From assembly GCA_903891315.1 (NCBI GenBank), contig CAITEF010000479.1, positions 1 to 38,547 of the forward strand: a DNA stretch of 38,547 nt. The letters are read 5' to 3'. Below the pieces are notes generated by a model. That model was not told the DNA's origin, ran no database searches, and was given only the letters and a program-made list of their open reading frames with translations. Source of the stretch: an uncultured Rhodospirillales bacterium (GTDB taxonomy: Bacteria; Pseudomonadota; Alphaproteobacteria; Acetobacterales; Acetobacteraceae). This document shows positions 8,353 to 22,071 of the stretch, piece by piece; positions within the stretch are counted from its first letter, which is position 1; each line of letters opens with the position of its first letter. The position numbers and the translations under genes were made by a program.

Positions 8353-9044
8353 CGCCCGAGCCTCGCACGCAGGCGGCGGCCGAGGAATTCGGAGATCAGC
8401 AACCCGGTAACCGCGAGGCTGACCGAGACCAGCGACAGACGTGCGGCAACCGCCTCGCCTTCAGGCTGCTGGAGCGCGGTGTAAATCGCCAGCGGCAAAG
8501 TCTGGGTCTGGCCGGGAATATTGGCGGCAAAGGTGATCACCGCGCCGAACTCACCCAGCGAGGCCGCAAATGCCACAACGGCACCGACCACGATGCCGGG
8601 CAGAGCGAGGGGCAGCACGATGCTGAACAGTCGGTCGAGGCGACCAGCCCCAAGCGTGCGGGCGGCTTCGATCAAGCCAGGGTCGATGGCGTCGAGCGAC
8701 AGCCGGATGGTGCGCACCATCAACGGGAAGCTCATCACGGCACAGGCCAATGCGGCTCCCTCGGTGGTGAACACCAGACGGATGCCGAACCAATCATGCA
8801 GCAGGCCGCCAATCTGGCCGCGCAGGCCAAAGGTCAGCAACAGCAGCCAGCCGACCACCACCGGCGGCAGCACCAGCGGCAGATGGACCACGATGTCGAG
8901 TACGCCGCGCCCTACGAAGCGTCCGCGCGCCAGCGCCGCGGCGACCAGGCAGGCCAGCGGCAGGCCGAAGCCGACGGCGCGGGCGGCCACGGCGAGGCTC
9001 AGTCGGATCGCCTGAAGCTCGTCGGGCGAAAACCCGACGATCAC
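8349..9044 (-). CDS. modB: Molybdate ABC transporter permease ModB
   Basis: Inner-membrane permease for molybdate, 231 aa. It has about five to six helices, with HLPLVLPPVVVGWLLL (about 54-70) typical of ModB, and the EAA loop EAARTLGAGRLDRLFSIVLP (126-145). The start is GTG 9044, whose bases overlap the stop of the upstream MFS gene (GTGA), so its translation probably depends on readthrough from that gene. No binding-protein gene (modA) lies next to it: the upstream neighbour is an efflux pump, so ModA must be elsewhere or this permease is shared with another binding protein. Confidence 0.93.
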   Translation of the reverse strand: MIVGFSPDELQAIRLSLAVAARAVGFGLPLACLVAAALARGRFVGRGVLDIVVHLPLVLPPVVVGWLLLLTFGLRGQIGGLLHDWFGIRLVFTTEGAALACAVMSFPLMVRTIRLSLDAIDPGLIEAARTLGAGRLDRLFSIVLPLALPGIVVGAVVAFAASLGEFGAVITFAANIPGQTQTLPLAIYTALQQPEGEAVAARLSLVSVSLAVTGLLISEFLGRRLRARLGR

Positions 9045-18925: not shown

Positions 18926-19450
18926 TCAACCCGGCTTCTGTTCTTTTTGGAAATACGCCGCAAGATCAGTGACAATCTGCTGCGAGATACTTGTCGAGAT
19001 CCGCCGCAAGACGTCCTCATTGCGCAATTCCGTATAGAAATACTGCACGTCGACCAAGTTCGCGCCGTCATTCGACTTCGCCCAGCCTGATACCACATCA
19101 CGCGGCTCACCCTTGACTGCCGTCAGCGTCCAATGCGCCGTCCCGATGACCCGCAATCTCGTCACCGCCGAGGTGGCGAACTCGGTGGCCACACCCTGTT
19201 CCGAGATCGTATAGGTCACCGAAAGCTGATAGGCGCGATCACTCAGACCGTCCGGGCCTTCCAGACGACGCTGCAATTCCTCGCGCAGCACCTGCCCGGG
19301 GCGCTCCGGGATCAGTGCCACATCGATCTGCCGCAGCCGGTCCGAGACCGCCCCGTTGTCGTGGCGGCCATACAAGGGTTGAAAGCCACAGCCGCTGCTG
19401 AGGGCGGCCAGCAATCCGGCTCCGATTGTCCGACGGCGGATCATGTTCAC
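18926..19450 (-). CDS. lptE: LPS assembly lipoprotein LptE (RlpB-like)
   Basis: Outer-membrane lipoprotein that plugs LptD and helps place LPS on the surface. It has 174 aa. The N-terminal signal is [17 protein letters not shown], with the lipobox SSGC and acylated Cys21 followed by GFQPLYG, the GFxPLYG mark of this family. The alphaproteobacterial form also carries [23 protein letters not shown]. The start is GTG 19450, overlapping the leuS stop (GTGA), or ATG 19444 two codons later. It lies between leuS and holA, as in most proteobacteria. Confidence 0.92.
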
Positions 19451-22071
19451 CCCGCGACCACGAAATTGACAATGCGGTTTGGCACATAGACCCGCTTGAC
19501 GACGCGTTTGCCGTCCAGCGCACGCGCCACATTCGGCTCTTCCGCCGCCGCCGCCAGAACATCCTCTTCTTTCGCGCCTGGAGCAACCTCGATGGTGCCG
19601 CGCAGCTTGCCGAGAACCTGGACGGCAATCGTCACCGATTCGGCGGCGAGCAAGGCCGGATCAGCCACCGGCCAGTCCGACTGTGCGATCAACGTGCCCC
19701 CCGGCGTCAGGCGTGCAGCGATTTCCTCCGCCAGATGCGGCATCATCGGCGAGATCAACCGTGCAAGTGCCGCGAATGCCTCCGCGCGTGCCCAGGCCAT
19801 CCCGGCCACGTCACCGGCGCGCTCGGCGTCGGTCAGCGCATTGGCGAATTCGTAGATGCGGGCCACAGCGACGTTGAAGCCGAAATTCTCCAGCGCCTCG
19901 GTGACCCCGGCAATCGTGCGATGCGTCGCCCGGCGCAGCGCGCGCGCGGCAGGGGCGAAATCGTCAGGCACCGCACCCGGCGCTCCGACAGGTGCCGTCT
20001 CGGCGAGGCGGAACAGGCGCTGGGTGAAGCGATAGGCCCCGAGCACGCCGCTCTCCGTCCACTCCATGTCACGCTCGGGCGGGTTGTCGGAGAGGATGAA
20101 CCAGCGCGCGGTATCGGCCCCGTAGCGCTGGATGATCGCGCCCGGATCGATGGTGTTGCGCTTGGATTTCGACATCGCCTCGATGCGGCCGACAATCACT
20201 GTCTCGCCGGTGTCGATGTGGGTGACACTGCCATCGGCGTGGCGGACGATCTCTTCCGGATAGAGCCAGCGGCCATCTTGGCCCTTGTAGCTCTCGTGGT
20301 TCACCATGCCTTGGGTGAACAGCCCGGCAAACGGCTCTTTTGCCGAGAGATGGCCGGTGCGGCGCATCGCGCGGGTGAAGTAGCGCGAATAGAGCAGATG
20401 CAAAATCGCGTGCTCGATGCCGCCAATATACTGATCCACCGGCAGCCAATGATCCACCGCCGCCCGCGTCACCGGCTCATCGGCCAAAGGCGAGCAGAAG
20501 CGGGCGAAATACCAGGAGGAATCGACAAACGTGTCGAACGTGTCGGTCTCACGCAAAGCCGGCTTGCCGCAAGACGGGCAGTTGGCGTGTTTCCACGTGG
20601 GATGGTGGTCGAGCGGATTGCCGGGGCGGTCGAAGGTGACATCTTCCGGCAGACGCAGCGGCAGATCGGATTTCGGCACCGGCACCACGCCGCAATCGTC
20701 GCAATGGATCACCGGGATCGGGCAGCCCCAATAGCGCTGGCGTGACACACCCCAGTCGCGCAGACGCCAATTGACGACGCCGCGGCCGACGCCGATCTCC
20801 TCCAGCCGCGCAATCGCCGCAGCCCGCGCGGCATCCGGTGCCAGACCGTCCAGGAAGCCGGAATTGATCATCTCGCCGGTGCCGTCACAGGCCTTGTTGG
20901 CGATGGTGAAGCTCTGCGCATCCTCGCCCGGCGGCAGCACCACTGCGGTGACGGCGAGATCATATTTCCGAGCGAAATCAAGGTCACGCTGGTCATGACC
21001 GGGGCAGCCGAAGATCGCTCCGGTGCCGTATTCCATCAGCACGAAATTGGCGATCCAGACCGGATGCGACAGGCCGGTGAACGGATTGACCACCTGAAGC
21101 CCGGTGTCGAACCCCTTCTTCTCCAGCGTCTCCAACACCGCTTCCGACGTGCCCTTGCTCTGGCAATCGGCGACAAAAGCCGCCGCGTCCGGATCGCGGG
21201 CGGCGACGGCGGCAGCGATTGGGTGCTCGGCGGCAACAGCCAGGAAGGACATGCCGAACAGTGTGTCCGGGCGTGTGGTGTAGACCTCGATCTCCTCATC
21301 GCCCTCGGTCAGCTTGAAGCGCACCCGCGCGCCCTCGGAGCGGCCAATCCAGTTCGCCTGCATCAGCCGCACGCGCTCTGGCCAACGATCCATCTCGCCC
21401 AAGGCGGAGAGCAATTCGGGCGCTTCATCGGTGATGCGGAACACCCAGGTGGCGAGTTTTTTCTTCTCGACCAGCGCACCGGAGCGCCAGCCGCGTCCGT
21501 CGATCACCTGTTCATTCGCCAAAACCGTATTATCAACCGGATCCCAGTTAACATAGGCCTCGCGACGCTCCACCAGCCCCGCGCGCAGCATGTCGGTGAA
21601 CAAAGCCTGCTGGTGGCCGTAATAGGACGGGTCACAAGTGGCGAATTCGCGCGCCCAGTCGATCGACAGCCCCATGCGCTTCAACTCGGCGCGCATATTG
21701 GCGATGTTGTCCCAGGTCCATTTCGCCGGATGCACGCCACGCTCACGCGCCGCGTTCTCGGCGGGCAGGCCGAACGCGTCCCAGCCCATCGGATGCATCA
21801 CCGAAAAGCCGCGCGCGCGCTTGTAGCGGGCGACGACGTCGCCCAGCGTGTAGTTGCGCACATGGCCCATGTGGATCTTCCCCGAAGGATAGGGGAACAT
21901 TTCGAGCACGTAGTATTTTGGTCGGCCGTCGGTCGGTACATCTTCCACGCGGAAGACGGATTGCGCGTCTCATGCCGCTTGCCAGCGCGGCTCAGCGGCG
22001 CGGAAATCGTAGCGCGGTGCGTCGGTTACGGGTTCAGACGCGACGACATGGGACGGAGCAGAGGAGGTCAT
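19447..22071 (-). CDS. leuS: Leucyl-tRNA synthetase with an in-frame UGA at codon 34
   Basis: Charges tRNA-Leu; normally essential. From ATG 22071 the frame gives 874 codons, the usual LeuRS length. Conserved N-terminal sequence ([16 protein letters not shown]) lies before codon 34, and matching sequence ([20 protein letters not shown]) lies after it. Codon 34 itself, at 21972-21970, is TGA where the family has Trp (RWQxxW). The class I motif HMGH is at about 67-70 and KMSKS reads MSKSK near 632; the editing domain and the zinc-type cysteines CDDC and CPSC are present. If UGA stops translation, the next possible start is GTG 21948, with no ribosome-binding site and the loss of 41 residues. 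The stop overlaps lptE. The gene identity is certain; whether it makes full-length protein is open. Confidence 0.93.
21970..21972 (-). other. In-frame TGA inside leuS (position of a conserved Trp)
   Basis: On the minus strand codons read GCG GCA TGA GAC GCG. A single G-to-A change from TGG would produce it (plus-strand base T at 21970 instead of C). Flanking codons keep LeuRS similarity on both sides, so there is no indel. Confidence 0.9.

Follow-up and report, generated by a model that had tools for sequence, protein, structure and literature searches.

The window analyzed here is a stretch of 38,547 nucleotides of DNA from the draft genome of an uncultured Rhodospirillales bacterium, and on its minus strand it carries a reading frame for leucyl-tRNA synthetase (LeuRS), leuS, that runs from ATG 22071 to TGA 19447 (874 codons plus the stop) and is broken at codon 34 by an in-frame TGA (Table 1). 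When the frame is read through this TGA it matches the bacterial LeuRS family TIGR00396 (leuS_bact) at 985.3 bits, over the cut-off of 548.4, from model positions 1 to 842 of 843, and the editing and anticodon-binding domains are present in the product. LeuRS homology lies in frame both 5′ and 3′ of codon 34, and because both flanks align in the same frame, a frameshift or a wrongly chosen gene start was rejected as the cause of the TGA. An earlier sequence-only reading of the window had located the start codon, the interrupted codon (21972–21970) and the in-frame homology on both sides correctly, and it is also true, as it stated, that TGG is one base away, since a C at 21970 on the plus strand restores it. 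By eye, the 20 bases before ATG 22071 offer only a weak AGG.

Table 1. Positions of the interrupted leuS frame, its parts and the adjacent gene in the window.
Feature	Position	Strand	Remarks
leuS (leucyl-tRNA synthetase) frame, interrupted at codon 34	19447..22071	-	TIGR00396 match on readthrough; open on either side of the TGA
In-frame TGA, leuS codon 34	21970..21972	-	All 84 related loci that align here have TGG
leuS codons 1-33, 5′ of the TGA	21973..22071	-	Codons 20-33 conserved, codons 1-19 variable among relatives
GTG, leuS codon 42, first in-frame start past the TGA	21946..21948	-	Without a preceding Shine-Dalgarno-like sequence
lptE, next gene downstream, overlaps the leuS stop (context)	18926..19450	-	PF04390, 28 bits

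The sequence-only reading called codon 34 a conserved tryptophan codon, and a comparison with 86 related leuS loci (six from the genus and 80 from our genome collection) bears this out, with TGG in all 84 of the loci that align there, the six genus mates included. Two loci, L040 and L041, duplicate L018 and L017 in their figures, and the 86 loci thus correspond to about 84 distinct ones and the 84 aligned loci to about 82 distinct genes. The two loci that are unaligned at codon 34 are L094, which starts past the site, and L100, which is frameshifted and has the tryptophan in its other reading frame. Tryptophan also stands at this position in the five printed PDB alignments, which involve two groups of LeuRS. 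One of the seven genus mates (G007, ∼74% complete) has no leuS above the cut-off. A search of 397 genomes of the family returned a leuS match in 384, and among the best 150 of these matching genomes, a best-scoring sample that is biased toward intact genes, an internal stop was counted by eye in the window's own row alone.

Apart from codon 34, the gene is clean. Lone departures at otherwise invariant leuS positions were counted across 85 rows, with L040 and L041 excluded as repeats, and the only such departure in the window's leuS is codon 34 itself; 54 rows have none and the maximum is four. Compared with the genus mate G003, the 14 codons immediately upstream of the TGA (codons 20–33) show five synonymous and no nonsynonymous differences, while codons 20–53 without codon 34 show 13 synonymous and four nonsynonymous differences in 33 codons and the remaining codons show 241 and 108, respectively, in 838. 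If codons 3–19 are added, all aligned codons up to 33 show eight synonymous and 10 nonsynonymous differences in 31 codons, so the extreme N-terminus of LeuRS is free to vary. Given a gene that is otherwise clean and a conserved segment at codons 20–33, the change at codon 34 is, judged from these alignments, either recent or not real.

To place the leuS interruption against a background, 698,776 bases of this genome, including the window and 21,467 N from ten contigs that are N throughout, were compared with the genes predicted from 1,185,294 bases of G003 (an earlier version of the comparison took in 27,053 bases and was later enlarged). Alignments were accepted as coding if they had at least 50 residues, at least 50% identity and at least half of their base differences at codon position 3. 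The 129 alignments so obtained (43,584 codons) contain two genes with an internal stop, namely leuS and a DUF1902 gene. A total of 20 stops fell inside alignments and 18 of them were set aside by eye, as lying before the likely start, in a weakly aligned 5′ extension or in the last residues, with those in L123 alone being checked against the list of open reading frames as well. Further stops that appear if the codon-position filter is removed were taken as antisense or extension matches. The DUF1902 gene (PF08972, 57.2 bits on readthrough; L288, G000:C61, 8568–8807, minus strand) has its TGA at 8777, which is codon 11 and is tryptophan in G003, and it is therefore a second isolated TGA at a tryptophan position in this genome. 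Across the 598 tryptophan positions of G003 that were aligned, this genome has TGG at 548, TGA at two and other codons at 48. A codon-usage scan for stops within coding frames had been dropped, as it could not distinguish interruptions from adjacent same-frame genes and gave leuS itself a weak score 5′ of its stop, and the orthologue comparison was used instead.

Interruptions of other kinds are also present. One of 150 ABC-transporter domains scored genome-wide, from 225 candidates, has an internal stop, an in-frame TAG in G000:C187:1617-2072 (minus strand), and none of 56 MFS matches has one. Hence, with two TGA genes and one TAG domain, isolated stops in this genome are uncommon yet present, and UGA is not their only type. 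In the reverse control, in which G003 was compared with this genome's genes (117 genes, 42,448 codons), 18 stops were found, none of them at a tryptophan position; they were taken as 5′ extensions and none is clearly internal in G003, with one query (h29) uncertain. With two internal stops here and none or one in G003, the genomes cannot be told apart by this count. Damage to leuS itself also occurs in other drafts, as the gene is broken in two of the 80 loci of the genome collection, by a TAG near position 8299 in L110, whose contig title gives a coverage of 2.09, and by a frameshift near 1092–1107 in L100.

The draft to which the window belongs consists of 697 contigs, is 96.15% complete with 4.65% contamination, and is probably metagenomic in origin; 18 of the 19 first-listed relatives are labeled as MAGs. 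We consider it highly probable that the TGA is a point error in, or an unfixed variant of, a TGG codon. A single G to A change on the coding strand would turn TGG into TGA, and most likely it is not fixed in the living population but would have come from a consensus or sequencing error, or from a rare strain variant, in a fragmented draft of this kind. The functional gene would then have TGG at codon 34 and encode an ordinary bacterial LeuRS of 874 residues, and the reads would be expected to show TGG. This explanation is favored because the change is a lone one-base difference in one draft, within an otherwise clean essential gene, and because no recoding component was found, and it is favored also by the other isolated stops in the assembly and the comparable leuS lesions in other drafts. 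Sequencing error was the first of four options in the sequence-only reading, and the evidence points in that direction. Two observations argue the other way. The assembly is not grossly bad, as only two frame changes were seen in the alignments to G003, both in L287 and both judged by eye to precede the likely start codons of what is presumably queC and of a small gene. In addition, TGA at a tryptophan position accounts for two of the three isolated stops, a pattern that leaky reading of UGA as tryptophan would also give, and the control has none, which keeps near-cognate suppression alive, although with three events the argument is weak.

Such suppression would mean that a nonsense mutation has recently become fixed and that the ordinary tRNA-Trp(CCA) reads UGA at low frequency, so that less full-length LeuRS is made, and we regard this as unlikely. 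It would require a single base change, the conserved codons 20–33 directly upstream of the TGA and the DUF1902 gene with its second TGA would both fit, and the window's leuS is the sole copy above the cut-off. The excerpted text of a survey of bacterial in-frame stops (PMC7918605) lends further plausibility, describing such stops as being under purifying selection and TGA as leaky with tryptophan inserted. Several observations weigh against it, however. G003, G005 and G006, all with TGG in leuS, share an identical tRNA-Trp(CCA) with this genome, and those of G001, G002 and G004 differ from it by one to three bases. The anticodon arm of this tRNA-Trp can pair at five positions as read by eye from the sequence (the minimum-energy fold given by ViennaRNA is not a cloverleaf), unlike the type with a 4-bp stem that reads UGA (PMC13092985, as excerpted). 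The Rfam tRNA model finds 39 tRNAs in this incomplete genome and the 38 that could be typed include none with a UCA anticodon; thus neither a UCA anticodon nor a changed tRNA-Trp(CCA), either of which would indicate suppression by an altered tRNA, was seen. A match to RF2 over its cut-off is present. Local RNA structure around the TGA was not detected in three stretches compared with shuffled sequences (z-scores of −0.70, −0.06, and 0.85), in a test of pseudoknot-free folds. The TGA occurs in one genome only, where the survey, in the same excerpts, demanded two, and the TAG interruption in the same genome also speaks against suppression. The suggestion in the sequence-only reading that a leaky stop could serve as a natural control point in an essential synthetase is not borne out, in that no aligned relative has TGA, the tRNA-Trp is ordinary, local structure was not found, and other isolated stops, TAG included, are present in the genome.

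Far less probable is initiation downstream of the TGA, at GTG 21948 or at a later in-frame start, to give a working LeuRS that lacks the first 41 residues. This GTG is indeed, as had been pointed out, the first in-frame ATG, GTG or TTG past the TGA and a restart there would cost those 41 residues, and the resulting protein of 833 residues still scores 972.3 bits against TIGR00396. The match begins only at model position 27, however, the lost stretch is conserved in the aligned relatives from about codon 20, and the 20 bases that precede the GTG show by eye no Shine-Dalgarno-like stretch, in agreement with the prior claim that a ribosome-binding site is not visible. There is less likelihood still that this copy of leuS is dying because the cell relies on a different LeuRS. 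An assembly that is ∼96% complete could lack a second gene, but the search for one that had been recommended gave no other TIGR00396 match over the cut-off in the 697 contigs, the other hits falling below it, and the gene has no further lone departure from the invariant positions.

Altered meanings of UGA can be assessed from its use as a stop and from the selenocysteine machinery. TGA terminates 10 of the 16 window genes that were checked, livM and parA among them (some of the gene names in this count are labels that we assigned), just as the sequence-only reading described UGA as the normal stop of the window. At the level of the genome, the orthologue ends in TGA in 68 of 106 cases here versus 75 of 109 in G003, which argues against reassignment of UGA, and the two TGA codons at the 598 tryptophan positions likewise uphold its exclusion by the sequence-only reading; UGA is thus neither rare as a stop nor common at tryptophan codons, the pattern that reassignment to tryptophan would give. 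One hit to the tRNA-Sec model, in C60, exceeds its cut-off, but it was rejected as ARAGORN types it as tRNA-Ser with anticodon TGA, and selB gave no match over the cut-off, so the pair of selB and tRNA-Sec that a selenoprotein needs is not seen in this incomplete genome. Reading of the leuS UGA as selenocysteine, or as a reassigned codon, therefore has a very low probability, given also that the aligned relatives have tryptophan at codon 34, the tRNA-Sec model hit being the one observation in its favor.

The evidence points to the leuS TGA being a one-base error or a rare assembly variant and not a novel form of decoding, and the case serves as a caution that comparison with relatives and with a background count should come before an isolated in-frame stop in a draft genome is called recoding. 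We would give only a very small chance to the more far-reaching version, in which UGA is fixed in the one leuS of the species and near-cognate decoding by tRNA-Trp keeps the cells alive, with the supply of LeuRS set by the balance between RF2 and Trp-tRNA and with the TGA of the DUF1902 gene as another case in a lineage that is unusually tolerant of UGA. If it were true, an essential synthetase sustained by a leaky UGA would provide a natural case, of a rare kind, in which the amount of an enzyme is tied to the accuracy of translation. Among the literature matches listed, no title concerned a bacterial leuS with an in-frame UGA.

With respect to known systems, the window's leuS resembles the bacterial LeuRS of TIGR00396 in its full-length match, its domains and its presence as one copy above the cut-off, and it differs in having TGA for TGG at codon 34. 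The tRNA-Trp with a 4-bp anticodon stem that is reported to read UGA (PMC13092985, as excerpted) likewise concerns UGA at a tryptophan position, whereas the tRNA-Trp of this genome can pair 5 bp and is the same as in three genus mates that have TGG. Another parallel is with the isolated in-frame stops of bacterial genes in the survey of Belinky et al. (2021; PMC7918605), which, according to the excerpted text, were accepted only if they were present in at least two genomes, thereby reducing sequencing errors. The window's leuS is like them in that one in-frame stop interrupts a gene that is conserved elsewhere along its length, but unlike those cases its stop is not seen in a second genome.
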